Source: Terriglobia bacterium (lineage in GTDB: Bacteria; Acidobacteriota; Terriglobia; Bryobacterales; UBA6623). From it: DNA of 64,000 nt. The position numbers and the translations under genes were made by a program. The stretch is taken from NCBI GenBank assembly GCA_009841225.1, contig VXMF01000009.1:1-64000 (forward strand). The letters are read 5' to 3'. This document shows positions 6,615 to 64,000 of the stretch, in pieces. The notes under the pieces are model-generated. The model did not search any database, was not told the origin of the DNA, and saw nothing but the letters and a program-made list of their open reading frames with translations. Numbering within the stretch: the stretch's first letter is position 1; every line of letters begins with the position of its first letter.

Positions 6615-6682
6615 GGGGTCGTAGACCACGCCTCTGGACATTCGAGGGCCGCGACTCGCACGGCTTGGCTGGGCCGATACGC

Positions 6683-7462
6683 ATGCAAGATTTGGGGGGC
6701 AAGACCGCTCTAGTTACCGGCGGGTCACGGGGGATCGGCCGTGCGATCTGCCTAGAGCTGGCCGCTCGCGGAGCCCGTGTGGCGGTGAATTACCGAAGCC
6801 GCGCGGCGGAGGCGGAGGCAACAGCAGCTGCGGTGCGCGACCTTGGGGTGTCCGCCTTGACGATCCAAGCCGATGTCTCTAGGCGCCCGGAAGTCAGCGC
6901 GATGGCGAAACAGGTAGAGGCCGAATTGGGCGCGCCCGACATCTTGGTCAATAACGCCGGGCTCCTGCATCGCGGAGAGCTGCTGGACTACAGCGAGGAC
7001 GAGTTCGACGGGATGTGGCGGACCAACGTCAAGGGAGTCATGTACTGCTCCGAGGCTGTGGCGCCCGAAATGATTCGGCGGGGCTGGGGTCGGATCGTGA
7101 ACCTGGCTTCCAACGCGGCCATTGGGACGGCGATGGCAGGCACCACGCTGTACGCGGTGACCAAGGGAGCGGTGCTCACGCTCACCAAGCGCATGGCCTT
7201 CGAGCTGTCTCCAAAGGGCATCACGGTGAACGCCGTGCTGCCGGGATTCACGAAGACCGACATGGTCATGTCCGGCAAGTCGCGGGACGAGCTAGACCGG
7301 CTGCTTCAAAGCGTCGCCGAGCGCTCTCTGGTCGGACGGACAGGAGAACCGGAGGACATCGCACACCTGACGGGATTTCTGTGCTCCCCGGCGAGCGGGT
7401 TCATCACCGGACAATTCATGATGGCCGATGGCGGCCGCCAAGACTACCTCACCAGGGTGTAG
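6683..7462 (+). CDS. SDR-family oxidoreductase, FabG-like 3-oxoacyl-ACP reductase
   Basis: NAD(P)-dependent short-chain dehydrogenase of about 259 aa. It has the cofactor loop TGGSRGIGRA near the N-terminus, NNAG in the central region, a serine in LASNAAIG and the catalytic YAVTK. The C-terminus (GFITGQFMMADGGR) is typical of FabG-type enzymes. The likely reaction is reduction of a 3-ketoacyl thioester or a related ketone, but many FabG paralogues have other substrates and this gene is not in a fatty-acid cluster. The track begins at a TTG (6665); ATG 6683 fits the family N-terminus better, though no strong SD is visible. Confidence 0.85.
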   Translation: MQDLGGKTALVTGGSRGIGRAICLELAARGARVAVNYRSRAAEAEATAAAVRDLGVSALTIQADVSRRPEVSAMAKQVEAELGAPDILVNNAGLLHRGELLDYSEDEFDGMWRTNVKGVMYCSEAVAPEMIRRGWGRIVNLASNAAIGTAMAGTTLYAVTKGAVLTLTKRMAFELSPKGITVNAVLPGFTKTDMVMSGKSRDELDRLLQSVAERSLVGRTGEPEDIAHLTGFLCSPASGFITGQFMMADGGRQDYLTRV

Positions 7463-7653
7463 CAGCATTCTGGCAAGCACGGTTCATCGCTAGAAAACCG
7501 GCGATCGATTGCCGGCGCAAGCCGCGTCCAGCGGGCGAGCTGGAGCATCGAACCTGCCGGCTGAATCGCTGCGTCAGGCTTCCCCCTGCAGTCCGAGCAA
7601 CCAAGGCGAGGGAATCCACCTCAGGCCTGTCCCGGCCCAGCGCGGACGCGCGG

Positions 7654-9051
7654 CTAGCCGAGTTCCACGCGATACGGGAAGCGGTCCCCAGCCTGCCGGA
7701 GATAGTCCAATATCTCGCCATCGAGCTCGCTCATCAGGCCAGCCCTAGAGGCGTCATCGGCCAGATTGCGCAGCTGGTAAGGGTCTTCTCGGTTGTCGTA
7801 CAGGCACCAGCGTCCGATCTCGCCGCACGCGTAGGTGTAGCGATTGGTGCGGATCCCGCGAAAGATCGGGGATGTATGGTTGACTCCGGCGCTGGCATGC
7901 GACTTGGAGATGTGCATCAGGAATTGGTGCTCCGGGCCGTCCACGGCCGCGCCGCGCGCCAGCGCTGACAAGTCCCGGCCGACGCAAGCGTCGGGCACGG
8001 AAATCCCTGCCATGCCGCACAGCGTCGGATATAGGTCGATCGCTCCAAGCAGCGCGCTGCTGCGATGGCCCTCCGACACGCCTGGGCCGCGCACCACGAA
8101 CGGCACCCGGCACGACTCCTCGTGCGGCAGTCGCTTGCCAGTGCGGTTGTGAGCGCCGAGCATCTCGCCGTGGTCCGAGGTGTAGACCACGATCGAACTG
8201 TCGGCCAGGCCGGTGCGGTCCAAGCATTCCATCAGCCGTCCGATTTCGATGTCCACGCCTTCCACGTGGGCGCAATAGCCGGCGGTGTCCCTTTGCACGT
8301 CGCGACCGCGTCCCCCGACGCCGCGGGTCACGGTGTCTACGGTGTTCGGGCGCAAACGCAGACCGCCGCCACTGTATTTCCGCATCAGCTCGGGCGGAGC
8401 GTCGTCGAAGGGCGGATGCGGGGGATTCAGCGAAAGCACTAGCATCCACGGGCGGTCTTTGTTGCGCTCGATAAAGCTGATGGCGTCGTCCGTCATCAGG
8501 GTCGCGTTATACCCGGCCGGCACCTGCTGCCGGCCGGTGGCCTGGTCATACGTGTGGGAGCGGTCGAAGTGCGGATTCGTGTTGTACCATGCTCGCCACT
8601 CCGCAAACCCGTGGCGCGCCTCCCCCTGCGGCTTGAGCGCGTGCCCTTCCGCACCACGCGCGTCCAAGTGCCACTTCCCGACATAGCCGGTGTGATAGCC
8701 GGCGTCGCGGAAGGCCTCGCCGAGGCTGTATTCGGACCTTCGCAGCGGATACGCGTTGTCGATGACGCCAGTCTGGTACGGCCAGCGGCCGGTCATGAGA
8801 ATGCCCCGGTAGGGCGAGCAGACAGGATAGTTCGAGACGCAATGGGTAAACGTCGTACCCTGCGATGCGAGGCGGGCGAGAGCGGGGGTCTCAGCATCGT
8901 TGTAAGGCTCGCCCGGCATCGTACAGGCCCTGTGCTGGTCGCTGAACACGAAGAGCACGTTGGGTTTGCGCGGCTGTTGCGCGCCGGCCGAGGACGCGCC
9001 TGCCACGGTCAATGCCCGGATGACGTCTCTGCGAGAGGGGTGCGCTACCAT
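7654..9051 (-). CDS. Tat-exported arylsulfatase-family sulfatase
   Basis: 465 aa. The N-terminus (SRRDVIRALTVAGASSAGAQ) has a twin-arginine pair, a short hydrophobic stretch and an Ala-x-Ala-like cleavage region, so export by Tat is likely. The formylglycine site reads CSPYRGILMTG. The usual CxPSR/CxPAR has Ser or Ala before the Arg, whereas this has Tyr. Further hallmarks are KWHLDA and TSDHGEMLGAH with metal and sulfate ligands. It would remove sulfate esters from a polysaccharide or small molecule outside the cytoplasm. TAGAAT lies 9 nt upstream of ATG 9051, suggesting a leaderless or near-leaderless message. Divergent from recO; convergent with the SDR gene. Confidence 0.88.
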   Translation of the reverse strand: MVAHPSRRDVIRALTVAGASSAGAQQPRKPNVLFVFSDQHRACTMPGEPYNDAETPALARLASQGTTFTHCVSNYPVCSPYRGILMTGRWPYQTGVIDNAYPLRRSEYSLGEAFRDAGYHTGYVGKWHLDARGAEGHALKPQGEARHGFAEWRAWYNTNPHFDRSHTYDQATGRQQVPAGYNATLMTDDAISFIERNKDRPWMLVLSLNPPHPPFDDAPPELMRKYSGGGLRLRPNTVDTVTRGVGGRGRDVQRDTAGYCAHVEGVDIEIGRLMECLDRTGLADSSIVVYTSDHGEMLGAHNRTGKRLPHEESCRVPFVVRGPGVSEGHRSSALLGAIDLYPTLCGMAGISVPDACVGRDLSALARGAAVDGPEHQFLMHISKSHASAGVNHTSPIFRGIRTNRYTYACGEIGRWCLYDNREDPYQLRNLADDASRAGLMSELDGEILDYLRQAGDRFPYRVELG

Positions 9052-9060
9052 GACGCTGGT

Positions 9061-9066
9061 ATTCTA
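9061..9066 (-). promoter_or_regulatory. TAGAAT -10 box, sulfatase
   Basis: Exact TAGAAT on the minus strand, 9 nt before ATG 9051, with no SD between. Confidence 0.5.
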
Positions 9067-9141
9067 GCAACGCACCCGGCTAGGCGATGCCGGGCAGCAC
9101 CAGCGCGTATCACCGTGTCTCGGCAGCAGATCTCTTAGTTC

Positions 9142-9948
9142 ATGCCATCCAGGGACAGCGAGGCATTGATACTGCGCAATTACCCGTACCGCGAAGCCGA
9201 CCTCATCGTGAGCTTCTTCACACGCGAGCGAGGCAAGCTTCGCGGCGTGGCGAGCGGAGTGCGCCGGCCCAAGAACAACAAGTTCGGCATCGGATTGGAG
9301 CGCTTGGCGCTCTCCCATGTCTACTACCTGCAGAAGGAGAACCGAGATCTCGTCACGGTCCAGCGCGCCGAACTGGCCGGCCCGTCGAACCTGTGGAAGG
9401 CGACTTACCCGACGAGCATCGTGTTAGACGTGATCGCCGAGACCACGGACCTGCTACTGCCAGAGCAACAGCCCAACGACGCCCACTTCCGCTTGCTGCG
9501 GCTGGTCGTCGAGGAATTCCGCCGGGGCATTGCGGAGGGGGACTCCAGCGATTCGGTCCAGCCCTGGGCGCACCGGGCCTTGGTGTACTACCTGCTGTGG
9601 TCGGCGCGGCTGGGCGGCTGGCTTCCGCCCCTGGGCCACTGTATCGAGTCGAATCAAGCCTTCGCCGAAGATGAACCGGCCTATTTCGGGGCCGATCGGG
9701 AAGGGCTGTTTCGCGCCGAGTTCAAGGATTCCAACTCCTGGGCGCTCCCGCGCGAGGCGCGCGCGCTGGCCGCGGCCATGCTCAAGCAGAGGCTGGACAA
9801 GTTGGATGTCTCCCTGTGGCAAGAGCGATCGGGCTTCGCGCTGCAGCGGTTCCTGCTACAGCGCACCCAAGCCCAGATCGAAGCGCAGCTCCGCGGAGTC
9901 CAAGCCCTGCGCGAACTCTGGCGTGACGCACCTGCCGGGCAGGCCTAG
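9142..9948 (+). CDS. recO: DNA repair protein RecO
   Basis: 268 aa cytoplasmic mediator that works with RecF/RecR to load RecA on SSB-coated DNA and anneals complementary strands. The N-terminal OB fold (EALILRNYPYREADLIVSFFTRERGKLRGVASGVRR) and the helical C-terminal domain (YYLLWSARLGGWLPPLGHC) are clear. Many RecO proteins have a four-cysteine zinc finger after this point; here only one cysteine remains, so the finger has been lost. The start at ATG 9142 matches the family N-terminus. The 3' end overlaps the convergent PDZ gene by 4 nt. Confidence 0.92.
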   Translation: MPSRDSEALILRNYPYREADLIVSFFTRERGKLRGVASGVRRPKNNKFGIGLERLALSHVYYLQKENRDLVTVQRAELAGPSNLWKATYPTSIVLDVIAETTDLLLPEQQPNDAHFRLLRLVVEEFRRGIAEGDSSDSVQPWAHRALVYYLLWSARLGGWLPPLGHCIESNQAFAEDEPAYFGADREGLFRAEFKDSNSWALPREARALAAAMLKQRLDKLDVSLWQERSGFALQRFLLQRTQAQIEAQLRGVQALRELWRDAPAGQA

Positions 9949-10826
9949 TTCGGATCCGAAACCGAATTAGCGGGATGCGGCGCCGCTTCCGACGCGACAT
10001 CGAAGCGAAGCGTTTTTCGATCCCGGTCGCGGACGATCTCCACATCTACCAGGCGATCATCTGAGGCCACCGCCAGCTTGCCTACTTCCACCGGACGGTC
10101 TACGGGCTCCCCGTCAACCGAGACGATCACGTCACCGGCCCGCAGGTCAGCCATCTCTGCAACGGACCCAGATCGCACATTGCGCACGAGCACACCGCGT
10201 TCAACCCCGAAGAACTCCGCAAGCTGTCCGTCCAAGCCCTCCAGTTCCGTGCCCAAACGCCGGTTCCTGGCGATCATTTGGACCTGCGGGACATCGAAGT
10301 CCCACGTGAACTCCGAACGCCAAGGAGGTCCGTCCGCCTCAAGACGCAGGCGGGCAGAGCCGATTCTATCCTTGACCGACTCCAGTTGCTGCTTGACCGC
10401 CTCGATCGTCTCTTTCGTGGCACTCAATGCCTCCCGCTCTCCGATCTCCACTGTCAGCGTAGTGCGCTGGCCGTCCCGTACGACGCCCAGTTCCACGGCG
10501 CGGCCGGCCGGAGTCTCGCGGACCAGCCGTGCGAAGTGCTGGTAGCCGTGCACACGCTCGCCGCGGTAGGTGAGGATAAAGTCGCCCTCGCGCAGGCCGG
10601 CACGCTCGGCGGGGCTGTCAGCGGTGACGCTGCTGATCTCGATCCCGTGTGCCTCGACCAGACCAATCTCGCGGGCAGTCTCGTCGTTGATATCCATCAC
10701 TCCAACGCCGATGTAGCTGGCCGGAGCGAACGCGAAGTGTCCGTGCACGCCCGGTGCCGCGCCGACAGGCGCTGCGCACGCGAGAGCGGCGCAGACGATC
10801 AGGGTCTTCTGGATTTGCGTATGCAC
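9945..10826 (-). CDS. Secreted double-PDZ-domain protein
   Basis: About 293 aa. A cleavable signal peptide (MHTQIQKTLIVCAALACAAPVGA) is followed by a first PDZ domain (IGVGVMDINDETAREIG ... GLREGDFILTYRG), a short helix and a second PDZ (LVRNVRSGSVAEMADLRAGDVIVSVDG). No protease domain is present, so it is more likely an adaptor or peptide-binding envelope protein than an HtrA enzyme. Start choice: AGGAGGA lies 6 nt before GTG 10826, whereas ATG 10832 and GTG 10844 overlap that SD. Last gene of the ECF sigma operon, 28 nt after the DUF4097 gene, so probably part of an envelope-stress response. Confidence 0.8.
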   Translation of the reverse strand: MHTQIQKTLIVCAALACAAPVGAAPGVHGHFAFAPASYIGVGVMDINDETAREIGLVEAHGIEISSVTADSPAERAGLREGDFILTYRGERVHGYQHFARLVRETPAGRAVELGVVRDGQRTTLTVEIGEREALSATKETIEAVKQQLESVKDRIGSARLRLEADGPPWRSEFTWDFDVPQVQMIARNRRLGTELEGLDGQLAEFFGVERGVLVRNVRSGSVAEMADLRAGDVIVSVDGEPVDRPVEVGKLAVASDDRLVDVEIVRDRDRKTLRFDVASEAAPHPANSVSDPN

Positions 10827-10854
10827 GATCATTCCTCCTGTCACACAGTGGCCT

Positions 10855-11997
10855 CTAGCGGCTCTTCCTGATTTCGATCCGTCCCAAGCCGTTGCGGATC
10901 CTCACCACCGATCCGCCGCCGTTGATCTCGCCGGCGGCCTGCTCGCTAACGGGTCCGAACAGGCGCGACGAACGCTGGACTTGGATGGAGGGGAAATCGC
11001 TGACGATCCCGTGCCGGCCCCGGGCCAGGTCGATGCTCGCCTCCAGCGTGAGTGCCAGCGATTCCGGCAGCGACAGCATGATCGTGCCTACCGACGTAGA
11101 GATCTCGGAGTGGCTTAGACTCGCACCCTCCTGCAGCGCGGCCACAATGTCGCCGGCTCCACTGGTCAATACCAGAGTCCCGCGCACCTTGCCGATGCGG
11201 ATGTCCCCGGCTCCCGCTTCAGCCCGCATGCCCTTTCGCACGTCAGCCGCGCGGATCACTCCGCCGCCCGTCCTAGCCTGAACTGTCCCATCCACGCGCC
11301 CGATCTCGATGCTGCCGGCGCCCGTCTCCGCTCTGAGGTCGCCCGCCACCGCGGCGGCTTGGATCATGCCGCCACGAGTGACGAGGCGCGCTTGCCCGCC
11401 GGCGCGGGCCAGCACGATGCTGCCCCCGGCAGTCTCGCAATTCACCGGGCCTCCGATGCTGCCCAACCGCACGCTGCCGCCCTCGGTGGTCGCGGTCACG
11501 CCGCCCTGCACCTGGTCGACTGCGATCGAGCCCCCAACGGTGTGGGCGGTGACCGAGCCGGCAATGCCTTGGACGACAATGCCGCCCGCTCGCGTCACCA
11601 AGTCGATCTCGGCAGTCGCCTTGGGGACTTCGATATCGAGCCGGAACCCAACCCTGCAATTGCCGCAGACCGGATCCCGGAGATTGATAGCCAGCGTGCG
11701 GTCTGCGCGATGCTCGAAGACTACCCCGGACTCCCGAAACACAACCGGCACCCATGTGCCGCCGCGCTCGGACCTCGCGCGGGTAGTCAGGGTGTAGCGC
11801 ACGTCGTCGCGGTCCGTGCCGCGCACCACGACCTGACCGCTGGCGCGCACTTCAATCCGCTCTGCCGCCGCCGCCTCACCGGTCCACTCCTGAGTCCAAT
11901 GCCGCCCGTCCCTCTGCGGCTGCGCCGCAAGGACGGCGGCCAAAGCCAGGGCCGCGCAAACGGCGCTGAAGACCGGCCTGCACCTTCGAATGGGCAT
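10855..11997 (-). CDS. DUF4097-type secreted beta-helix protein
   Basis: About 380 aa. Signal peptide MPIRRCRPVFSAVCAALALAAVLAAQ, then a short N-terminal domain. A long run of degenerate beta-strand repeats follows (TRAGGIVVQG, TVGGSIAVDQ, TEGGSVRLGS, TAGGSIVLAR and so on), typical of DUF4097 putative adhesins. The repeats end in a C-terminal strand-rich segment. DUF4097 proteins are commonly encoded beside sigma/anti-sigma pairs; their molecular role is not established. ATG 11997 is chosen over the ORF start (12219) because the signal peptide begins there. It starts 4 nt after the anti-sigma gene stop. Confidence 0.82.
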   Translation of the reverse strand: MPIRRCRPVFSAVCAALALAAVLAAQPQRDGRHWTQEWTGEAAAAERIEVRASGQVVVRGTDRDDVRYTLTTRARSERGGTWVPVVFRESGVVFEHRADRTLAINLRDPVCGNCRVGFRLDIEVPKATAEIDLVTRAGGIVVQGIAGSVTAHTVGGSIAVDQVQGGVTATTEGGSVRLGSIGGPVNCETAGGSIVLARAGGQARLVTRGGMIQAAAVAGDLRAETGAGSIEIGRVDGTVQARTGGGVIRAADVRKGMRAEAGAGDIRIGKVRGTLVLTSGAGDIVAALQEGASLSHSEISTSVGTIMLSLPESLALTLEASIDLARGRHGIVSDFPSIQVQRSSRLFGPVSEQAAGEINGGGSVVRIRNGLGRIEIRKSR

Positions 11998-12001
11998 GGC
12001 C

Positions 12002-12977
12002 TCAGAAACGCTCCATTGACGCGTCGAGCACGTCCAAGATGCGCTCGCTCTCGTGCAGCACGAAGGGGTTTTGCTCGCGCTCGACCAACTCCTGCAGCGC
12101 ACCTGCCAAGTCCCGGCCGGGACGCTGGCCGAGCAGCTGAATCGCATGGATCCGCATGCCGTCGAGCGGATCCGAGCGCAACGTCTCGACAAGAGCCGCC
12201 CGCACGTCCGGTTCCTCAACTTGCCCTCTGACCGCTTCCAGCGCCTGGAGCCTGATGCCGGGGTTCTGGTCCTCCAGCATCGAGCGCAGCAAGATGCGGC
12301 GCACTTCGCGGTCGGATGCGTGCCCCTGCAGGGCTTCGAGCGACGACAGGCGCGCTCCGGGGTGCGATTCCCGCACCGTGTCCATGAGCATCGCTCGGAT
12401 CAATGGATCGGACGACTCGCCGCTGACGACCCTGCGCTCTTCCAACACTATCTGCACTTGGCCCCTGACAGGGTCGAGCTGGACGGTCTCGATCCCTGTC
12501 AGGGTGCGGTTGGCGTCAAGGGAGAATGACTCGATCAGGCTGGCTCCGTCCACAGGCTCCGGAGCGAGAAATCTGGCCGGACGGACGTCGCGGCCGGCCA
12601 AGAAACCAACAAACAGCAGGGCAGCCGCCGCGGCAGGCTGCCAGACCAACGGGCGGGCAGCGAGTGCCGAGCTCACGTCGCGCATGCGCCGGCCCAGCCG
12701 GCGCCAGGGCGAAGCGGTCCGGCCCAAGCCTCCTTCGGCGGCAACCGCCAGCGCTAGATCTTGGCGGCAATCGTCCAATAGCGATTCGGCCTCGGCGTCG
12801 ACGTCGGAATCGCTGAGCGAGAGCAAGAACGCCTGTTCCTCCTCGAACAAGGCCCGGAATTCGGGCATCTCGTCGCGGAAGCGCTCGACCTCCTTGCGCT
12901 CGGCCAAGCCCAGCTCGCCGTAGAGGTACAGGCGGATGCGCTGCCGCAACAGCTCGCTCTCGAGGGCGGCGCGATCG

Positions 12978-12991
<14 letters not shown>
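12002..12991 (-). CDS. Membrane-anchored HEAT-repeat protein, putative anti-sigma factor
   Basis: 329 aa. The N-terminal ~95 residues are helical and charged (LRQRIRLYLYGELGLAERKEVERFRDEMPEF), resembling the sigma-binding region of anti-sigma factors but without the HxxxCxxC zinc motif. One membrane segment (LVWQPAAAAALLFVGFLAG) at about 115-133 follows. The C-terminal half has HEAT-like alpha repeats (DREVRRILLRSMLEDQNPGIRLQALEAV is an example of the pattern), so those repeats would face the periplasm. It overlaps the sigma gene by 14 nt, indicating coupled translation. Anti-sigma function is inferred from position and topology. Confidence 0.75.
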
Positions 12992-13628
<637 letters not shown>

Positions 13629-13681
13629 GGTTGGACGCACCGAACGGCCGAAGCGTTAGCCAACTGGGTCGACACTCCGTG

Positions 13682-14794
13682 TCACACGATCCAGCCGCCT
13701 CCCAATACGTAGTCATCGGCATAGAAGACCGCGGCCTGGCCGGGCGTGACTGCGCATTGCGGCTCATCAAAAACGACGTCGGCCTGATCTGGCATGCCAG
13801 CTACCGGTCGGACCTCGGCCCAAGCCAAGGGTGCGCGATAGCGGATCTTGGCTTGCGCCCGCACTGGCTCTCGCAGAGCATCGAAACGGATCCAATTGGG
13901 ATCGCGAATCCTACAGGCCTCGCGCAGCAGGGACTCCTTGGGCCCAACCACGACCTTGCGATCGGCGGCTCGGATTTCGGTCACGTAGACCGGCCGGCCG
14001 ACGGCGACGCCGAGTCCGCGGCGCTGGCCCACCGTGAAGTTGTGGACGCCCCCGTGCTCTCCCAGGACCGCGCCATCCTCGGACACTACCTCGCCAGGCT
14101 CGGCCGCGCCCAGTTCGGCGCTCTGCTCGCGGTACGCTTCGACGAAACTAGCGTAGTCGCCGTTAGGCACGAAGCAGATCTCGCGGCTCTCCGCCTTGCC
14201 GGCGACATCGAGGCCGAGGTCCCGGGCCAGCTCGCGCACCTCGGCCTTGCCCATGGATCCAAGCGGAAACATCGTGCGCGCGAGCTGCTGTTGTGTCAGG
14301 CCGAAGAGGAAATAGGACTGGTCGCGCGACTCGTCAACGCCGGCGAGCAGGAGATATCGTCCGGATTCGCGGTCAAACTCGATCCGCGCGTAGTGTCCCG
14401 TGGCTACCGTGCCTGCCCCGACCTGGCTGGCGGTCTCCAAGAAGCGGTCGAACTTCAGGAAGTTGTTGCACAGCGTGCAGGGAATCGGCGTCCGCCCGGC
14501 CAGGTAGTCCGCCACGAACGGCCGCACGACCTGCCTTTCGAAACTCTCCTCGAAATTGACGACGTAATAGGGAATCCCCAGCTGCTGCGCGACCCAGCGG
14601 GCGTCGTAGACGTCGTCCAGAGAGCAGCACCTGCCAGACGAGCCATCCTCGGGAACCAGCTGCGGCATGCGCTGCTGGTCCCACAGCTGCATGGTCATGC
14701 CCACGATGGGCTGACGCTTGCTGTGCAACAACGCGGCTACGGCGGAGGAATCCACCCCGCCGCTCATCGCCACCGCCACGAGAGAGTCCGGCAC
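13682..14794 (-). CDS. mnmA: tRNA-specific 2-thiouridylase MnmA
   Basis: 370 aa cytoplasmic enzyme that thiolates U34 of tRNA-Lys/Glu/Gln using sulfur relayed from IscS. The PP-loop SGGVDSS is at residues 11-17. The catalytic pair is Cys109 in [10 protein letters not shown] and Cys207 in REICFV. The first site is the CxxC variant found in many bacteria. The C-terminal tRNA-binding barrel ([14 protein letters not shown] onward) is complete. It starts with GTG 14794: TACGCT lies 7 nt upstream and AGGA abuts the GTG too closely for a normal SD, so a leaderless start is plausible. Confidence 0.95.
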
Positions 14795-14801
14795 TCCTCT
14801 C

Positions 14802-14807
14802 AGCGTA
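14802..14807 (-). promoter_or_regulatory. Possible leaderless -10 box, mnmA
   Basis: TACGCT on the minus strand, 7 nt before the GTG start at 14794. TANNNT match, weaker than TAGAAT. Confidence 0.3.
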
Positions 14808-14832
14808 GCGCCTCGCGCCGGGAGCCGGGCTC

Positions 14833-16638
14833 CTACCAGCCGATCTGCCTGCCCTCGTTCGCCTGCTCCAAGTAATCCACCAGCGGGGCGAAGTAATCCA
14901 GCATCGCCTTAGTGGAGACCTCGCTGCCAGTTTTCTCGAGCATCACTTCGCGCCAATCACGCGTCGCGCCAAGACTGAGCAGATCCCAGAGGAAGTCGCC
15001 GACCTCCTCGTTGCCGTAGTAGTTGCAGTTTCGCGGATCCTGCTTGAGGATGTTGTTGGCGATGTAGGTGTGCAGCTGGTACTTGATCACGAACGCCATT
15101 GCGTAGTCGTAGTACTGTGCCGGATCGTCGGTGATGTGGGTCTTGGTGCAAGCGTCGCAATACTCCTCGCCCCGCGAACCGGGTGGCTTGATCCCTTGGA
15201 ACCGCCCGGCGTGCTCCCACCAGCGCTGGTTGAACTCGCCGACCGGCAGATCTTCCTCGTAGAGATCGTGCTCGAAGAACGACATCGTCCCGGCAGCGAA
15301 GGGAATGAACACTACGGCCTGATCCAGCGCCTCGTCCAGCAGCCAAGCAATCTCGTCGATTTCCGCATCTTCCTCAAGCAGTCCGATCTCCTTCAGGTAC
15401 GCAGGCTGGCGGGCGGCGATCCCGATCAGGTCGCCGACCGCTTCGTGAAAGGCCCGGTTGGCACCTTCCCGCAGCGCCAAGGGCACGTCGCCGCTGCTAT
15501 ACGCCATGTAGTAGTAAACGTGCCCCAACTCGTGGTGCGAGGTCTCGAACCAGCGCCAGTTGTTCTCGACGCTCATCAGAGAGCGCACGTCTGTCTTCAG
15601 GTCCATGTGCCAAGCCGATGCGTGGGTGTTCTTCTTGCGCTCGGCCCCGTGCGGCAAGGGGTAGAGGTCTGACCGTTCGTAGAACGACTGCGGCAGCGAG
15701 GGCATCCCCAGCGATGTGTAGAACGCCTCAGCCTGGCGGACGATCCACTCCGGATCCTGCTCCTTGACCAGCTCGTTGAGATCAATGCCGCTGGCGAGCC
15801 CCGGCCAGGCCTGCGCCCAGCGATTGCCGATCCAATGGGCCGGAATCTTGTCCGGGACCGGCTGGCCGTAGCGTCCTGCCAGCTCGTGCTTGGCCCAGGT
15901 GTGGAGTTGCTCGTAGAGCGGCCTGAGGTCTTCGTTGAAACGCTCCATCATGGCCATCATTTCGTCCACGGTCATGCCGTAGTCGTCCACCTGCAGCGCA
16001 AAGAATGAGTCGTAGCCCATCTCTTGGGCGACATCGTTGCGAAGGTCGCGCAGCTTGCCGATGCCCTGCTTCAAGGCTGGCCCAGTCTGTTTCGCGACCT
16101 CCCATATCTTGCGCCGCTCGGCTTCGTTCTCGGAGGTGACCAGCACTTGGTCGATCTGATTCGGCGTCACGACCTCGATGCAGCGCTCGCCAGAGCGCTC
16201 GGCGCAGAATTCGAACGAGTCTAGGATCGCGCTCTGCTCGGCTTCTGCCGACACGCGCGCAGCGACGACCTCCGGTATCGTGCCAGGATACTCGGCGGCC
16301 GCCATCAGCACCTTGCGCAGCTGGCGTTTGGTCGCGTCGTCAAGCTGGTCCTCGCGCCCGAGCAACCGCTTGACCGTCTCGATCACCCACGGATTGCCAG
16401 TGATGGACGCCATGACCTGCTCCGCACCGATGCGCTCGCCCACGTGAAGGTCCGTCACGTCGGTGGACGACTTCCAAAACGACTCGGCCACGATGGGATA
16501 CATTCCTCCGAGGATCTGTTCGTAGGTAGCCAGGAACTTGTCGGCCTCCGATTGCGGACTCGGGGAGCAGGCCCCGACAAGCGCAAGGGCGAGGGCACCG
16601 ACGCAAGCCTGCCACGTTGTTCGAGAATGTGAGGTCAT
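14833..16638 (-). CDS. M2-family dipeptidyl carboxypeptidase (bacterial ACE-like), lipoprotein
   Basis: About 601 aa. The N-terminus ends in LVGAC, a lipobox, so the protein is probably membrane-anchored outside the cytoplasm. The zinc site is [14 protein letters not shown] near residue 366, with the third ligand Glu downstream in [10 protein letters not shown]. These are the hallmarks of angiotensin-converting-enzyme-type peptidases that remove C-terminal dipeptides. Length matches single-domain bacterial homologues. The open frame runs to 16797, but ATG 16638 begins the signal peptide and has TAGAAT 8 nt upstream. The physiological substrate in bacteria is unknown. Confidence 0.92.
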
Positions 16639-16646
16639 CACTTGCC

Positions 16647-16652
16647 ATTCTA
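16647..16652 (-). promoter_or_regulatory. TAGAAT -10 box, M2 peptidase
   Basis: Exact TAGAAT on the minus strand, 8 nt before ATG 16638; no SD. Confidence 0.5.
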
Positions 16653-16964
16653 AGCGCCAGCGGCGCTGGCCCACAGCCTGGGCAGGCCGCTTGCTTGAGC
16701 GGACGCACTGGGGTCTGCCGGAAGTCGCGGTCTCGGTCTCTGCCCGTGTGCCGCCGAGCCAAACAACACGCTCGGAATCGGCCAACCGAGCGGACATGCG
16801 TTGCGTCTAGCCGCTGCGGTTTCTTATGCTGAAAGAGGGGGTCTGTCGCTCAGCAGGCGTCTCCGAATGGCGCTGGCGCAACGTCTGATCATTGCGTGGC
16901 TAGCGCAATCATTCCAGGCTTGACTGCGTTCGCACGCCGGCGAGTCCAAGGAGCACCTAGGAAC

Positions 16965-18104
16965 ATGAAGAATCTGTGTCGCCAGGCACTGCTGCCGGTC
17001 GCAGTCTTGGCCGTGGCCGGCTGTAGCGGGCCGGAACCGCCCAGCGGGCCGATCATGCCGGTGGGCGAGAGCCAGGCGATCGAGCCGCCGCTGGGGCTGC
17101 CGGAAGTGGCCGTCCCGGCGGATAACCCGCCGACCGCCGAGACCGTCGCCCTCGGACGCCAGCTGTACTACGACAAGACCCTCTCGGTGGACAACTCGAT
17201 CGCGTGTGCGAGCTGTCACGACCCGGGGGCCGGATTCGCAGACCCGAACCAGTTCTCGGAGGGTGTCGGCGGCGAGCTCGGCGGACGGCAGGCGCCGCCG
17301 GTCATGAACGCCGCATACTTCACCGCGCAGTTTTGGGACGGCCGTGCAGCGAGCTTGGAAGAGCAGGCCGGCGGACCGGTCGAGAACCCCATCGAAATGG
17401 CGTTCACGCATGAGGGCGTCATCGAGCGCCTGTCCGAGGACCCGGTATACACGGAATTGTTCAAGGAAGCGTGGGGCGAAGGACCGATCGCCTTCGAAAT
17501 GGTGGCCAAGTCCATCGCCAGCTTCGAGCGCACCGTGCTGGTTGGCAATTCCCCGTTCGACCGCTACATGTTCGGCGACGACAAGGAGGCTATGAGCGAA
17601 GACGCCATTCGCGGCCTCGATGTCTTCACCGACCCGGAGAAGGGTAATTGCGAAGTCTGCCACGAGATCAACGAAGAGGAGGGCTATGCCCTGTTCACGG
17701 ACAACAAGTTCCACAATCTCGGCGTTGGGGCGGAACTCGACGGTTCGATGGCAGATATCGGGCGCTTCGAAGTTAGCCAAGTCGAGACTGACAAGGGCGC
17801 ATTCAAGACACCACACCTGCGCAACATCGCCGACAGCGCGCCGTACATGCACGACGGGCACCTGAAGACACTGAAGGAGGTGGTGGACTTCTATGTGGGC
17901 GCGGGGAACTCGAACGATTTTCGCGACGAGGAAATCCACGAACTGGACCATCTCAGCGCGCAAGAACGAGCCGACCTGATTGCATTCATGGAGGCCCTCA
18001 GCGGCGAATATCCCGAGGATGTCGGCCCGCCGCACGGTGAAACGGCGTACCGGGACGTGCCTGCGGAGTCGCTGGCGCGCGGTTGCTTCCGGGCCGATAT
18101 CTGA
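16965..18104 (+). CDS. Di-haem cytochrome c peroxidase family lipoprotein
   Basis: About 379 aa. Signal with lipobox LAVAGC, then two c-type haem sites, CASCH at about residues 81-85 and CEVCH at about 229-233. The surrounding sequence (LGRQLYYDKTLSVDNSIACASCHDP, then FKTPHLRNIADSAPYMHDGHLKTL) is characteristic of the bacterial peroxidase/MauG superfamily. It would act in the periplasm, reducing peroxide with electrons from a cytochrome or oxidising another protein. ATG 16965 is chosen because the signal peptide starts there. Transcribed divergently from the M2 peptidase and upstream of the TauE-like exporter. Confidence 0.9.
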   Translation: MKNLCRQALLPVAVLAVAGCSGPEPPSGPIMPVGESQAIEPPLGLPEVAVPADNPPTAETVALGRQLYYDKTLSVDNSIACASCHDPGAGFADPNQFSEGVGGELGGRQAPPVMNAAYFTAQFWDGRAASLEEQAGGPVENPIEMAFTHEGVIERLSEDPVYTELFKEAWGEGPIAFEMVAKSIASFERTVLVGNSPFDRYMFGDDKEAMSEDAIRGLDVFTDPEKGNCEVCHEINEEEGYALFTDNKFHNLGVGAELDGSMADIGRFEVSQVETDKGAFKTPHLRNIADSAPYMHDGHLKTLKEVVDFYVGAGNSNDFRDEEIHELDHLSAQERADLIAFMEALSGEYPEDVGPPHGETAYRDVPAESLARGCFRADI

Positions 18105-18237
18105 TCTGAGTTCGGGCAGGAGTGACAGCTAGGCCGTCAGCCCGCCGCTCCCGCGCACCCTTTGATACTGGGGGGCCACAGCGGCGATCAAGCGCGACCG
18201 CGGTCGTGCGACTTCAGCCGCCTGGATTGGTCGTCTT

Positions 18238-19059
18238 GTGAATCCCCGCTCGCTCATCCTAGCCTCGATGGTAGGCGTCGGAGCCGTGGGATTCTCCATG
18301 CACGGCCAGGGCGGCGGCGTGCTGTACACCCCGCTCCAGCTTGTTTTCGGCGTCCCGTTCCATGTAGCGGCCGTACAGAGTCTGTGGCTGACGATCCTCA
18401 CCGCTCTATCGGCGGTGCTGCTGTTCCGCAAGGAGCAGCAGGTGGACTGGAAGCTATCGGTGGTGCTGGAGTCTTCCAGCTTTCTCGGAGCATTCGGCAG
18501 CGGGTACTTCGCGCGGCTGTTCTCTTCGACAACGCTGTCCATAGGGCTTGCCGTTCTGCTAGTCGCATCGGGAATCGTCATGCTGGCGGACCTGAGCCCG
18601 CGGGCGGCCAGCTCCGGCCCCCGCTCGCGCCTTGAGTGGGTCCGGTTTCGCGCCGGGCAGACCTATCGCATCCATCTCGGCAAGGGGCTGCCCCTGTCGT
18701 TTCTGATCGGCATCATGTCGGGCCTTACCGGTGCGGCCGGCGGTTTCCTGAAGATCCCCATGCTGGTGCGCCTGTTCGGCGTTCCGATCAAGGTTGCCTT
18801 CGGCTCGTCGGCGTTCATGGTGAGCCTGACCGCGGCAGGCGGGCTGCTCGGCCACGTCGCGACGGGAGCTGTGCAGTGGCATCATCCGCTGCTGCTTGGA
18901 GCGTTCGTCCTAGCGGGCTCCCAGATCGGGCCTAGGATCGCGCTGCGTTCCAAGCCGGAGACGATGCGCAAGCGATTCTCGGCATACCTGTTCGCGATCG
19001 CATTGCTAGTCCTGGCCACGCTATGGTTTTCGACCGCCCCCACCGAACCTGTCAGCTGA
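18238..19059 (+). CDS. TauE/SafE-family sulfite/anion exporter
   Basis: 273 aa, about eight membrane helices in two related halves. The repeated glycine-rich motifs HGQGGGVLYTPLQLVFGVP and GLTGAAGGFLKIPMLVRLFGVP mark the inverted-repeat fold of the TauE/SafE (DUF81) family. Members export sulfite, sulfoacetate or other organic anions. The sulfatases elsewhere in the window make a link to sulfur release tempting but unproven. It begins with GTG 18238; no clear SD or TANNNT box was found. Confidence 0.85.
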   Translation: MNPRSLILASMVGVGAVGFSMHGQGGGVLYTPLQLVFGVPFHVAAVQSLWLTILTALSAVLLFRKEQQVDWKLSVVLESSSFLGAFGSGYFARLFSSTTLSIGLAVLLVASGIVMLADLSPRAASSGPRSRLEWVRFRAGQTYRIHLGKGLPLSFLIGIMSGLTGAAGGFLKIPMLVRLFGVPIKVAFGSSAFMVSLTAAGGLLGHVATGAVQWHHPLLLGAFVLAGSQIGPRIALRSKPETMRKRFSAYLFAIALLVLATLWFSTAPTEPVS

Positions 19060-19161
19060 GGCAGCCTCGCGCAGGCACGCCGCCCGCGCCAGATCTGGTC
19101 CGCGCAACCGACTCGGCCTCACCGAAACAGCCGTCGCCCGGCCCTCGGCAGAGGCGCGTGC

Positions 19162-20043
19162 CTACAAGACCACCAGGGGGTGGAAGCATCCCGGGGCGAT
19201 GGCCTCGCCTACGCAGAGAAGGTGGCCCTGTGGATCGACAGCCTTCACCAGCTGCGCTGTTGCGCACTCGCCAAACGCGCTCACGCTGAAGTCTTGGCCA
19301 TGCCTGATCCTGGCGGCGGTCACGGAGTCGACCCGCTCGACCGGAAGGCTCGGAACCAGAGCCGCAGGAGGCCGGACGGCCTCTGCGAGTCGATCGTCTG
19401 CCCAAAACTCTTCCAGACGCTGTAGAGAGTGCGCATCGTCTAGCTCGAATTCCCCCACCTTCGTGCGGTTCAGCCCGTAGACGTGCGCCCCGCAGCCCAA
19501 GACAGCGCCCAAGTCGTGGGCCAAGGATCGGATGTACGTCCCGGCGGAGCAAAGACACCGAACCGTGGCAAAAGGACCATCCACCTCCTGCAACTCGAGT
19601 GCGTGGATTTCGATCGCCGCCGGTTCTAACGCTACAGGCTGGTCCTGGCGTGCCAGCTTGTACGCCCGGACGCCATCGACCTTCTTGGCAGAGACCGGCG
19701 GCGGCACCTGCCTGACGCGGCCGCGAAACGCCTCGAACGCCGCCTCCAGCGCCGACTCGTCCAGCTCGACCTGCTGGGCTTCGCCGACTTGGACGCCTTC
19801 GGCGTCGTACGTGGACGTCGACCAGCCAAACCGGATGCGGGCCACATATTCACGACGGTGGCCCAGATAGAAGCGCGCCAGCCGCGTCGCACGGCCCACC
19901 ACGATGGGCAGGACGCCGGTGGCTGCAGGATCCAAGGTGCCCAGGTGGCCGACTTTCGCCCCGCCGACAAGCCGACGGATCTTGCGCACGGCCGCAAAGG
20001 AGGTCATCCCTGCGGGCTTGTCCAAGACGATGGCACCGTCCAT
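19162..20043 (-). CDS. truB: tRNA pseudouridine-55 synthase TruB
   Basis: 293 aa cytoplasmic enzyme making pseudouridine 55 in the T-loop of most tRNAs. The catalytic Asp38 sits in VGHLGTLDPAATGVLP. The conserved LDKPAGMTS at the N-terminus and GTYIRSLAHDLG in the second half are present, followed by a C-terminal PUA-like domain. It lies 90 nt downstream of waaF on the same strand. ATG 20043 is preceded by TAGAAT with a 7-nt spacer and no SD, so it appears to have its own leaderless promoter. Confidence 0.95.
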   Translation of the reverse strand: MDGAIVLDKPAGMTSFAAVRKIRRLVGGAKVGHLGTLDPAATGVLPIVVGRATRLARFYLGHRREYVARIRFGWSTSTYDAEGVQVGEAQQVELDESALEAAFEAFRGRVRQVPPPVSAKKVDGVRAYKLARQDQPVALEPAAIEIHALELQEVDGPFATVRCLCSAGTYIRSLAHDLGAVLGCGAHVYGLNRTKVGEFELDDAHSLQRLEEFWADDRLAEAVRPPAALVPSLPVERVDSVTAARIRHGQDFSVSAFGECATAQLVKAVDPQGHLLCVGEAIAPGCFHPLVVL

Positions 20044-20050
20044 CTAGCTC

Positions 20051-20056
20051 ATTCTA
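20051..20056 (-). promoter_or_regulatory. TAGAAT -10 box, truB
   Basis: Exact TAGAAT on the minus strand, 7 nt before ATG 20043; transcription would be expected to start at the ATG itself. Confidence 0.55.
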
Positions 20057-20133
20057 GATACGGCCCGGCACGAGCGGTCTTGCCAGAACAGGACACCCGG
20101 CCACGGACCGGCGACGGCTACGACGCGAACCCG

Positions 20134-21180
20134 CTACGCGGGGTCCCCCAAGCCGACCAGCAAAGACCGTGCCTCGGAGACGACCATGCTCGCCTCGACT
20201 CCGGCCATGCACGGATGCCCCTCGATGGGACACTCTCGCAGCAGGCACGGGGAACAATCGACGGGGTGCCGCACAATCCGTGCCCACGGCGAGGCGGGAC
20301 CAGTGGCATCAGCGTTGGTGGCACCGAAGACGGCCACGGTGGGAACACCCAGCGCGGCAGCCACGTGCATCGAACCCGAATCATTGGTCAGGAAGAGTTG
20401 GCATGTCGAGGCAAGCTCCAAGAACTCCGGCAGGCTTGTCTGGCCAGCCAAGCAGACGGATCGTTTCCCGGCCCTGGCGGCGACTTCTGCGGCCAGCGGC
20501 AGTTCAGCATCCGATCCGAACACGGCGATGCCTGTGCCAAGCTCCTCTGCTAGATCCGTAGCCGCGCTGGCGAAGCGCTCGGCTGGCCAGCGCTTGGCTG
20601 AGCCAAACGCGGCCCCGGGGCTGACTCCGATCCACGGCCCTGAAGACAGGCCGCGGCCCTCCCAGCGTGCCGCACCGTTGCGGCGCAACTCATCGATCCG
20701 GTCAAAGCAGGCGGCGGTGTCGGCCGGCACGCGCTCGATCAGCCGCGCCCTGCGCAGCAATTCCAAGTAGTAGAAGCGCTGGTGCTCTGGTATTTCCCCG
20801 AAAGAGGGCACTGGCACCCTGCCGGTTAGCAACAGCCCGCGACCGTCCCTGTCGTATCCGATCCGCTCGGGCACTCGCGCCCGCCAGGCCAGCCAAGCCG
20901 CGTCGAACGCGTTCTGCAGCAGAATGGCGCGGTCAAAGCGGCGGGATCGCAGCTCTTTCGCAAGCCTTTCCCTGCCCCAAAGCCCGCTGTGGTCCCCATC
21001 GCTCTGGTAGATCAAGACCTCGTCGCAGAACCCCTCACCCTCGTAGAGGCCCGCCACCCACGGCAGAGCCAGGATCGTGATCCGCCAGCCTGCGTGCGCG
21101 CGCCGGATCGCCCTCAGAGCTGGGATCGACATGATGGCATCGCCGATCCAGTTCGTGGCGCGTACAAGCAGACGTTGCAT
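20134..21180 (-). CDS. waaF: ADP-heptose:LPS heptosyltransferase (glycosyltransferase family 9, WaaF-like)
   Basis: About 348 aa, GT-B fold, inner face of the cytoplasmic membrane. It adds heptose to the lipopolysaccharide inner core. Conserved blocks are RATNWIGDAIMSIPALRAIRRA at the N-terminus, PGAAFGSAKRWPAERFA in the middle and FLTNDSGSMHVAAALGVPTVAVFGATN for ADP-heptose binding. ATG 21180 begins the family N-terminus and has AAAGGG upstream; the open frame extends 21 codons further. Presence of this gene argues for an LPS-bearing outer membrane. Confidence 0.88.
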   Translation of the reverse strand: MQRLLVRATNWIGDAIMSIPALRAIRRAHAGWRITILALPWVAGLYEGEGFCDEVLIYQSDGDHSGLWGRERLAKELRSRRFDRAILLQNAFDAAWLAWRARVPERIGYDRDGRGLLLTGRVPVPSFGEIPEHQRFYYLELLRRARLIERVPADTAACFDRIDELRRNGAARWEGRGLSSGPWIGVSPGAAFGSAKRWPAERFASAATDLAEELGTGIAVFGSDAELPLAAEVAARAGKRSVCLAGQTSLPEFLELASTCQLFLTNDSGSMHVAAALGVPTVAVFGATNADATGPASPWARIVRHPVDCSPCLLRECPIEGHPCMAGVEASMVVSEARSLLVGLGDPA

Positions 21181-60595: not shown

Positions 60596-60912
60596 CTTGG
60601 GCATCGTGCTGGTCAGATTTGGTGCTTGCCCCAATGGGCAACTGAGACATCGTCTTGGCTATTGGAGCGCCAGATCCGTCTGGCGGATCCCGCCACGCGC
60701 TGTGCGGAAGAGATTTGTGGGTACAAGTGTGCTAATGTGATCCCGCACCAGTCGCGCAGGTACTCGATACGTCGGGTCTCCTGCCGAATACAACAGCCAG
60801 TCATCGGTACGGAGTAGCTTCCCGCGCCTTGGCGAATAAGCAGGACGGCCACGCTCTCTTGCGCGACTGGTGCAGGGCCCGGCACCCCTTGTGCCGACAA
60901 AGGGGGAAATCA

Positions 60913-61884
60913 ATGCACAAACAGATCGTCGTGCTCACTTCTCTAGCGATGACGGTGGCCCTGCATGCTCAAACGCAGAAGGCCGTAGTCGCTATCGACG
61001 AGATACAGACAGCAGCGCAGAACATATCATGTCAAGGATGGGACAGGCATGCAGGATTCAACTGCAATGCCGACCTCTCCGAGGGATTTCGCGTCATGGT
61101 CGAAACGGCCATTGTGAAGTCGGGCAAGATAACCGTACTGGAACGCGACCAGTGGGACGCAATTATGAGGGAGCGTCTCTTGGGAGAGGCTGGTATCACC
61201 ACAAGCGGGGGGACCATCGAGGGTCTCACCGGAGTAGATTATGTGATCTACGGAACGATCACTAAATTCGGTGCTCGCGCTGGGGGATTCGGGCTGAATC
61301 TCCTGTCTCGGAATCAATCCCGCAACAGTCAATCTGCACATTCCAAGCTCACCGTGCAGATGGCGGTCGATCTCAAGATCACCGCTGTGGAAGATGCTCG
61401 AATCGTCTTTGCCGATACCGTGGAGGGAGAGGTCGTTCAGGGCAAGTCATTCTCATTCGGATCCATCGAAAGCAGCAACAAGACAGCAGATCCCTTCGCG
61501 GATGTGCTACGCGTGGTTGCGAACAAGATCTCGGAAGTAATCGCAACAGACCATATCCCCATCAAGATCATTCAGGCCCAGAGTGACGGCACGCTGATCC
61601 TGAACTATGGCAATGTGTTCTTCCAGCCGGGCGACGAGCTGGTTCTGATGGAGTTGGGTGAGCCGTTCAAAGATCCAGATACTGGCGAAGTGCTTGGCTC
61701 CGAGGAGCGCGAGATCGGACGCATTGAAGTGACCGATGCCACAAGCCGATTCTCCAAGGCGCGGTTCCTCAGCGAGCCGGTCCGCTTCGAGCGCGGAACC
61801 GTACTCAAGAGGCCACATGTGCCCGCAGAGTCCAAGAAGACCCAAAATCAGCGCAAACGGTCTGGAGCGAAGCTAGGCCGATAG
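60913..61884 (+). CDS. Secreted CsgG-like protein
   Basis: 323 aa. Signal peptide (MHKQIVVLTSLAMTVALHAQ) without a lipobox. The central domain (NADLSEGFRVMVETAIVKSGKITVLERDQWDAIMRERLLGEAG, then GTIEGLTGVDYVIYGTITKFG) matches the CsgG/LpoB-like fold of curli secretion and envelope assembly proteins. A glycine/serine-rich stretch (GGFGLNLLSRNQSRNS) and a basic C-terminus (KKTQNQRKRSGAKLGR) are unusual. ATG 60913 has a strong AGGGGG 6 nt upstream. No curli genes are adjacent, so its role is unknown. Base composition is lower in GC than the core genes. Confidence 0.8.
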   Translation: MHKQIVVLTSLAMTVALHAQTQKAVVAIDEIQTAAQNISCQGWDRHAGFNCNADLSEGFRVMVETAIVKSGKITVLERDQWDAIMRERLLGEAGITTSGGTIEGLTGVDYVIYGTITKFGARAGGFGLNLLSRNQSRNSQSAHSKLTVQMAVDLKITAVEDARIVFADTVEGEVVQGKSFSFGSIESSNKTADPFADVLRVVANKISEVIATDHIPIKIIQAQSDGTLILNYGNVFFQPGDELVLMELGEPFKDPDTGEVLGSEEREIGRIEVTDATSRFSKARFLSEPVRFERGTVLKRPHVPAESKKTQNQRKRSGAKLGR

Positions 61885-62107
61885 CTGGAGAATAGCTTCG
61901 TTCGGTACGAACAGCAGTTTCGACTGTCCAGAACCGCATAGGTCGCTGAGGAACCTGAGCGCTTTCAGGAACTGGGCTTGATATTGCGTTTCGAGCCGAC
62001 TCCATTCCCTAGGATCCCCGTTGGGCTCCGAACTCGGGCTCGCTGCCTTGGCGCTTGCGTGAGTTTCGGCAATAATCGCACAGCAGCAATACCAGAGGAG
62101 GGTACCC

Positions 62108-63217
62108 GTGCCCTTAACGCAACCAACTACTCGCAGACCAAACGGACTGGCATTCAAAGCGACCTACAACGATGGCGGTGCCCTCGGCGGCTTGATCGGC
62201 TACCGGGGCGTCTGCTCGGACCGCATCATCGTCCAGAACGTGGAAGTCGACAGAAGAGCATGGTGCAGCGATCCAGACAACAAATGTCTTCAATATTGCG
62301 ACCGAGGCCGGAACGGTCCGCGACCGAAGGTGCCACCCCCGGATGGACAGGTCTATGACGGTGTGTGCTACGAGAGCCAGCTACTCGCAAGGAGGCCGTT
62401 CAAGTTCTGGGCAGGCACTTATCAGTCGGGCCCGCACAGGGGTGAACCGATCCCCATAGATTTTGGGAAAGTCGTGGCGGGAGACATCGTGCTGCTGACG
62501 ACGTTGGCTCCGCAGCGCATGGAGCGAGACCGCATTGTCTTCGCGTGCTACAGAGTGGGAAACGTCGGCAAGGACAAATGGGGCAACTACATCGAATCGG
62601 ACGGCACCATGGACTTGGTGCTGCCGGAGAGAATCGCGATGTCCTGTCGGTATTGGGATTACCAATCTCCGAACAAGGACGGTTCAGTCTTCTGGGGCAG
62701 CGGCTTGTTTCGGTATCTAGACACGGACAATACGAAACGCTTTGTCGATGAATTGGTGTTTCGGCTTGGAGACACCTCGGAGAGAGACATGCTGGTACGC
62801 ACGCTGGGAAATGCCATCGAGATCAAACCCCCGCAAGGTGGACGCGGGAGACCGAGTGGCACTAGCGAGGGTGACGAGCACCGGCTGCTCAAGGAATTGG
62901 TCGCTGCGAAGCCGGAATTGATCGGGCTGCCCGCAGGATCAGAGCCCGAGATCGAGCACAGCTTCTTGAGTGGAGATAGGGTAGACGTGAAGTTCGACCT
63001 GCCGAACGGCGACGCAGCAGTTGTGGAGGTGGAGACGATTGTCCCTGAGCCTGGAGCACATCAGGCGATAAAGTACCGGGCGCTGTTGGAGGTTCAAAGG
63101 TCGGAGGCCCTAGGTTCAGGTCACGTTGAAGCAATCTTGGTCGCGCACGAATTCGATGGCGAAACTCGGAAGCTAGCGGAGAAATACCAGATCAGGCTCG
63201 TGAAGTTGAGAGCTTGA
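62108..63217 (+). CDS. Cys-rich protein with PD-(D/E)XK-like C-terminal domain
   Basis: 369 aa, soluble, no signal peptide. Residues 30-90 hold five cysteines (36, 53, 60, 64, 87), possibly a metal site. Residues about 95-235 form a compact domain (RPFKFWAGTYQSG, GDIVLLTTLAP, RIVFACYRVGNVGKDKWGNYIESDG, GSGLFRYLD) faintly like an EVE/PUA-type fold. Residues about 255-369 resemble NucS-like restriction-endonuclease folds: SGDRVDVKFDL (Asp293), VVEVET (Glu307, Glu309) and QAIKYRAL (Gln319, Tyr323). The usual ExK lysine is replaced by Glu. GTG 62108 has GAGGAGGG 5 nt upstream. Function not recognised; a defence role is possible. Confidence 0.75.
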   Translation: MPLTQPTTRRPNGLAFKATYNDGGALGGLIGYRGVCSDRIIVQNVEVDRRAWCSDPDNKCLQYCDRGRNGPRPKVPPPDGQVYDGVCYESQLLARRPFKFWAGTYQSGPHRGEPIPIDFGKVVAGDIVLLTTLAPQRMERDRIVFACYRVGNVGKDKWGNYIESDGTMDLVLPERIAMSCRYWDYQSPNKDGSVFWGSGLFRYLDTDNTKRFVDELVFRLGDTSERDMLVRTLGNAIEIKPPQGGRGRPSGTSEGDEHRLLKELVAAKPELIGLPAGSEPEIEHSFLSGDRVDVKFDLPNGDAAVVEVETIVPEPGAHQAIKYRALLEVQRSEALGSGHVEAILVAHEFDGETRKLAEKYQIRLVKLRA

Positions 63218-63580
63218 GCGCCCGTTGTCCGGCAGGGGCGGAGCTGTTCATGCAGTTCCACCGCGCCCCACCCTAAGGGAAGCGGCCTCGCCGCTTGCCT
63301 GGGACCTGCGCGGAGACGCTGACGCACCGGACAATCTGCATTCGGCTGATGCCCTCAACGCTGGCCAGGATCATCTCGCCACGCAGCCGAAGCTGTGTGG
63401 CAACGTGGTCGACTCCGCTACGTCCATGGATCGCGCGCGGCCTCCTCGTTGAGCGCGAGCGGAGCTTGTTGGGGTCCTTGTGACACCGCTGCTCCCACCC
63501 GGGTGAATGGAGCCATTACCTTCCACGCATCTATGACTCGCTGAACTAGGAGAGGACTGTAGTTTCGCTTTCCGGAGAGC
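63218..63580. other. Gene-free convergent region with small hairpin
   Basis: 363 nt with no credible ORF. A perfect hairpin AAGCGGC-CTC-GCCGCTT lies at 63280-63296, 63 nt after the nuclease-like gene stop; it has no T tract. Nothing else recognised. Confidence 0.45.
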
Positions 63581-64000
63581 CTACAAGCTAGCCCGTCGAA
63601 GCTTCGATTCATCCATGTCGCTTCCGAGGCCGATCATTGCAGGGATCATCTCAATATCCAGCCCTTCATTCCGCACTCGAATGTCAAAATACAACAAGGT
63701 GATCGCAACATCCACGACTGGAGCCAACAGTGAATGTATGAAGGTGGCTGTCAGAAACGTAACGCCCTCTTCTAAATCGATTATCTGGAAGCGATCTGCA
63801 AGAAGTTCGAACCCGAGAAGGACGATTAAGGGAAGAGTAAGCCCTACCCAACGCCAGAAGTTGTAGCTCATCAATTCCGTGCTGCGTCGCAAGGCGTCTC
63901 TGTAGACCCTTCGTTCGAGCACGACAACATGGACAGAAAGTGCCCATCTGACTGTATAGATCAGACCGGGGACGACCAGAGCCAAGTACAGGAAAATGAG
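63581..64000 (-). CDS. Membrane protein, C-terminal fragment (window edge)
   Basis: The reading frame is open to the last base (LIFLYLALVVPGLIYTVRWALS), so the gene starts outside the window. About four hydrophobic segments are present. VVPGLIYTVRWALSVHVVVLERRVYRDALRRSTELM and TLLYFDIRVRNEGLDIEMI match the glycerophosphodiesterase-membrane-domain/DUF7847-like pattern of multi-pass proteins of unknown function. No catalytic domain is visible in this part. Confidence 0.75.
   Translation of the reverse strand, partial: LIFLYLALVVPGLIYTVRWALSVHVVVLERRVYRDALRRSTELMSYNFWRWVGLTLPLIVLLGFELLADRFQIIDLEEGVTFLTATFIHSLLAPVVDVAITLLYFDIRVRNEGLDIEMIPAMIGLGSDMDESKLRRASL

Follow-up and report, generated by a model that had tools for sequence, protein, structure and literature searches.

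A horizontally acquired gene for a putative sensor-nuclease with a predicted NucS-like E-x-E active site in a Terriglobia bacterium

Nucleases of the PD-(D/E)XK superfamily do not all keep the catalytic lysine, which in some enzymes is replaced by E, Q or N. BamHI carries Glu in place of this residue, and type II enzymes tolerate Glu there (PMC4081073). In NucS, the catalytic set comprises E127, D160, E174, K176, Q187 and Y191 (PMC7343888). Fusion of a sensor to a nuclease is the usual layout of modification-dependent enzymes (PMC7641849, PMC7897488), and PD-(D/E)XK nucleases are among the known fusion partners of YTH/EVE-like domains (PMC7641849). Here we describe a gene in a 64,000-nucleotide stretch of Terriglobia DNA (the whole stretch analysed, hereafter the window) whose product has the layout of type IV restriction, with a putative sensor and a nuclease in one chain and no adjacent methylase.

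The gene and the insertion that carries it

The open reading frame at 62108-63217 is a genuine gene, and its product can be divided as follows.

62108-63217, plus strand: sensor-nuclease gene, 369 aa, GTG start; five full-length homologues
62094-62102, plus strand: strong Shine-Dalgarno sequence, AGAGGAGGG, just 5' of the GTG
62144-62377, plus strand: cysteine module, residues 13-90; C36, C53, C60 and C87 invariant, probable zinc site
62378-62815, plus strand: middle domain (putative sensor), residues 91-236, possibly PUA-like; R142, W183 and Y203 invariant
62822-62866, plus strand: linker of low confidence (pLDDT <50), residues 239-253
62867-63214, plus strand: NucS-like PD-(D/E)XK nuclease domain, residues 254-369, starting at the invariant E254
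62984-62986, plus strand: D293, equivalent to NucS D160
63026-63034, plus strand: E307-V308-E309, equivalent to NucS E174-x-K176 with Lys changed to Glu
63062-63076, plus strand: Q319-x-x-K322-Y323, with the equivalents of NucS Q187 and Y191

Inspection of the translation confirmed the positions that the original prediction had assigned to Asp293, Glu307-Val-Glu309, Gln319 and Tyr323, as well as its five-cysteine N-terminal region: cysteines 36, 53, 60, 64 and 87 fall within the first 90 residues, and two more lie at 147 and 180. The surrounding DNA is AT-richer, as had been described, at ~54-60% GC between 60.8 and 63.2 kb compared with 61-67% in the remaining window. The gene lies on an insertion with two further genes.

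60626-64000, no strand assigned: window part of a ~4-kb insertion that runs on to ~64602 of the contig and is absent from close congeners
60829-61884, plus strand: CsgG-family gene on the insertion, with no demonstrated part in the finding
63581-64000, minus strand: membrane protein gene on the insertion, its 5' end at contig position 64378, past the window; likewise with no demonstrated part in the finding

The insertion is flanked by a homoserine dehydrogenase gene and a Gfo/Idh-like oxidoreductase gene, which stand ~125-210 bp apart in four congeners. Since the ~4-kb segment is absent from close congeners, the window gene was acquired horizontally and recently, at a variable site; the interval between the two flanking genes has the character of an insertion hotspot. 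None of the ten other genomes of the genus has the CsgG-like gene or the membrane protein gene. A fifth congener carries a different insert of ~6 kb at the same site (L091, 4535-10615), with two long open reading frames (936 and 461 aa). Placed between the CsgG-family gene and the membrane protein gene, the window gene indeed has no adjacent methylase or helicase, and no recognisable defence gene lies beside it. ZacA, ZacB and ZacC are likewise missing from its surroundings, and we accordingly do not place it in the ZacABC system.

A NucS-like fold with Glu at the lysine position

In the AlphaFold model of the full-length protein (pLDDT 84.6), the nuclease domain shows the helix-strand order of the restriction-endonuclease-like fold. 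Foldseek matches this domain to NucS/EndoMS (2vld, E 4.4e-7; 5gke, E 1.2e-6) and further to Card1, SfsA and Can2 (all E <= 5e-4), so that the PD-(D/E)XK fold originally proposed for the C-terminus, rather than a non-nuclease fold, is borne out. Among homologues, L053 reaches E 0.0012 against Pfam NucS_C, which is below the model cut-off, and the NCBIfam NucS model matches one member of the aligned set (5.6e-8).

The NucS catalytic set maps onto E254, D293, E307, E309, Q319 and Y323 of the window protein; of the superfamily features, the acidic metal-binding residues D293 and E307 are present and the catalytic Lys is absent, its position being taken by Glu309. Across 15 C-terminal homologues, E254, D293, E307, Q319, K322 and Y323 are invariant, and D293, E307 and E309 are all kept in every full-length homologue, as the original prediction would have it. 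At the catalytic-lysine position, the six full-length proteins all have Glu and the other nine C-terminal homologues all have Lys; the six E-x-E proteins form one clade (support 0.986). Because Glu is fixed throughout this clade and Lys is found in the nine sisters, the E-x-E appears to be an inherited, BamHI-like variant and not a product of decay; the Glu variant being known in BamHI, Glu309 does not bar membership of the PD-(D/E)XK superfamily. The substitution had earlier been taken as a hint of a dead site, a suggestion that loses its force given the fixation of Glu in the whole full-length clade and the same swap in BamHI, and a dead active site in the window protein seems unlikely on this pattern of residues.

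Strict coupling of E-x-E with the sensor was considered and rejected, as a seventh E-x-E protein, L123 (G548:C5), carries DUF4268 in place of the sensor. DUF4268 is also the partner of the nuclease in L124, which has E-x-K, and another N-terminal region is found in L125 (E-x-K); these fusions indicate that the nuclease is a module shuffled among several partner domains.

The N-terminal domains and the company of their relatives

The window protein matches no model in Pfam, NCBIfam or PADLOC, and scanning genome and viral contigs with this one sequence returned no relatives; a pattern test with a family-like sequence as alignment row and query also gave no match, and nothing here is built on it. 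By tblastn, the protein matches an unannotated 'Bacteriophage sp.' record with identity at 62 of 195 positions, and from this match a two-sequence alignment led on to further relatives. Public genomes yielded sixty relatives of residues 13-217; most are from Clostridia, a few are from Proteobacteria, and a single Thaumarchaeota assembly is also represented. In a sample of 396 genomes across the phylum, the sensor occurs in the window genome only.

Alignment of 43 relatives shows that C36, C53, C60 and C87 are invariant and that C64 is not conserved; a nearly invariant C18 of the relatives is Ala in the window protein. The simplest reading of the four invariant cysteines would be a single zinc site. 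Together, the conserved residues of the cysteine module and the C-terminal domain make up a pattern that is more than chance. In the middle domain of the aligned relatives, W183 and Y203 are invariant and position 185 (Y185 here) is always Tyr or Phe; these three residues could line a base pocket, which is predicted to lie close to R142 as well. We infer that the N-terminal part of the protein is a sensor.

The original prediction ascribed an EVE/PUA-like flavour to the middle domain, a suggestion that is weakly supported. The AlphaFold model of this domain (pLDDT 89, pTM 0.87) gives no significant Foldseek match in the PDB (best E 0.21, to YTHDF1), and the resulting list of non-significant hits is rich in PUA-like structures, namely YTHDF1, ZmASCH, Rpa0253 (2gbs) and Lon N-terminal domains. 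Rpa0253 (2gbs) we take to be an EVE-type protein. Membership of the EVE family was rejected: the Pfam EVE profile finds no match in the window protein, and a profile comparison of the middle domain with EVE proteins from related genomes produced no alignment. Sequence profiles of both domains likewise yielded no real match in the PDB. Judged by sequence, the putative sensor is a previously unnamed family, distinct from EVE.

The full layout of the window protein recurs in five relatives of proteobacterial lineages (L010, L023, L040, L053 and L059). Most Bacillota relatives consist of an N-terminal extension, the cysteine module and the middle domain, without a nuclease; in 13 members, the PcrA/UvrD tudor model matches the extension. 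Homologues on Priestia plasmids (L007, 6962-7816; L008, 7632-8486) combine Tudor and sensor without the cysteine module, and their annotation as 'malate synthase' looks wrong. A zinc-ribbon-like Cys-rich protein occurs near McrBC genes at two loci: in L065 (7345-9021) it forms a fusion with the sensor, and in L019 (10701-11375) it is the product of the neighbouring gene.

The neighbourhoods of homologues, which the original prediction had pointed to as a place to look for defence genes, contain them beside many relatives: in 18 of 60 loci, a relative of a known defence gene lies no more than three genes away from the sensor gene. The defence queries match 29 of the 283 genes near the sensor and 4 of the 272 far ones, a comparison that is biased towards near genes, from which the queries were taken, and is supportive only. 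ZacA/B/C adjoin nuclease-less relatives at L003 (the phage-record locus), L029, L043 and L046; GmrSD adjoins L049-L051 and L057, AIPR L026 and L053, McrBC L019 and L065, and type I RM genes L059 and L063. Two of the relatives with defence neighbours are nuclease-fused, L053 (AIPR) and L059 (type I RM genes upstream); the neighbours of L040 on its two sides are a NERD protein and an Lhr helicase.

Gene order at the Zac loci suggests that the Tudor-sensor gene may be an unlisted fourth ZacABC gene. In L043 (3231-8661) and L046 (3412-11878), it comes straight after ZacC, with an ADP-ribosylglycohydrolase-like gene 12 bp on. In L003 (MT835621.1, from human faeces; 4026-20396), HsdM- and HsdR-like genes lie upstream, followed by ZacA, ZacB, ZacC and the Tudor-sensor gene; this scaffold looks more like a defence island from a bacterium or prophage than like ordinary phage DNA.

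Proposed function and comparison with known systems

We hold with moderate confidence that the window protein is a stand-alone, type IV-like, single-chain sensor-nuclease directed against foreign nucleic acid, probably as a phage defence. The beta-rich middle domain and the cysteine module, the latter holding one zinc, would together recognise a chemical feature of that nucleic acid, for which a modified base is the likeliest candidate; recognition would position the NucS-like nuclease for cutting, with metal ions held by E254, D293 and E307, and with E309 occupying the place of the NucS lysine, as in BamHI. This reading draws on the nuclease fold with its NucS-type catalytic residues, the fixed E-x-E, the four invariant cysteines, the 18 defence loci among 60, the insertion, the sensor-nuclease layout usual in modification-dependent enzymes, and the dominance of PUA-like readers among the weak structural matches of the middle domain. 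Against it stand the want of a defence gene beside the window copy, the non-significance of the PUA-like matches, the negative sequence comparison with EVE, the absence of the catalytic Lys, the bias of the near/far gene comparison, and the fact that NucS reads mismatches, not modifications. A broader proposal, which we put forward tentatively, is that the cysteine and middle domains form a nucleic-acid modification sensor common to several defence systems, which would act as the fourth ZacABC gene and accompany GmrSD, McrBC and AIPR in Bacillota, and which Proteobacteria would have fused to an E-x-E NucS-like nuclease as a one-gene restriction enzyme.

Abortive infection, in which the sensor would respond to altered RNA or to a signal of infection, whereupon the nuclease would cut host or phage nucleic acid indiscriminately, killing or arresting the cell, seems unlikely. 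It would accord with YTH, the best though weak match of the middle domain, which reads m6A in RNA (PMC7641849), with the presence of the signal-activated effectors Card1 and Can2 among the nuclease matches, and with AIPR, an abortive-infection family, beside two loci; however, the presence of GmrSD, McrBC and type I RM genes beside relatives speaks for DNA restriction, and the cyclic-nucleotide-binding part of Card1 and Can2 is absent from the window protein. Still more doubtful is a catalytically dead nuclease in a protein that serves as a binding or adaptor factor for modified nucleic acid. The Lys-to-Glu change and the existence of Bacillota relatives with a sensor and no nuclease at all fit such a role, but divergent proteins all retain E254, D293, E307, Q319, K322 and Y323, which is what a working site would lead one to expect, and BamHI is active with Glu at the same position (PMC4081073). 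Least probable is a DNA-repair enzyme that cuts mismatches or branched structures like NucS/EndoMS, its closest fold and family, with the new N-terminal domains standing in for the DNA-binding domain of NucS, since a very patchy distribution (1 of 396 phylum genomes), carriage on an insertion and defence-gene company are all unlike housekeeping repair.

The sensor family has no model in Pfam, NCBIfam or PADLOC, yet its relatives often adjoin diverse anti-phage systems. The compact one-gene fusion offers a simple handle on the ligand of the sensor, and the answer would inform all sensor-linked systems; the E-x-E clade, for its part, is a testable case of a Lys-to-Glu swap in a NucS-like active site.

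Among described proteins, NucS/EndoMS shares the PD-(D/E)XK fold of the C-terminal domain. Its E127, D160, E174, Q187 and Y191 correspond to E254, D293, E307, Q319 and Y323 of the window protein, with equal spacing from D to E (14 residues) and from Q to Y (4 residues), whereas NucS Lys176 faces Glu309 and the NucS N-terminal DNA-binding domain gives way to an unrelated cysteine module and sensor domain. The archaeal clamp-binding motif QLxxLF is absent from the window protein sequence, and with an unrelated N-terminus and no match of the NucS model, we do not assign the protein to NucS/EndoMS proper. The Bacillota Tudor-sensor proteins, including P0003 of the phage record, have the middle domain in common with it and, except for the Priestia copies, the cysteine module; unlike it, they begin with a PcrA/UvrD Tudor-like region, lack the nuclease domain and often adjoin multi-gene defence systems. 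EVE-HNH (VcaM4I) and the YTH- and EVE-PD-(D/E)XK proteins join sensor and nuclease in one chain, as here, but the window sensor, with its four-cysteine module, belongs to an unnamed family in which no sequence similarity to EVE is detectable, and the nuclease is NucS-like with E-x-E. BamHI, finally, shares the E-x-E active site in which Glu replaces the catalytic Lys (PMC4081073), and differs in family and architecture, being a type II enzyme that cuts at a specific sequence and is paired with a methylase.
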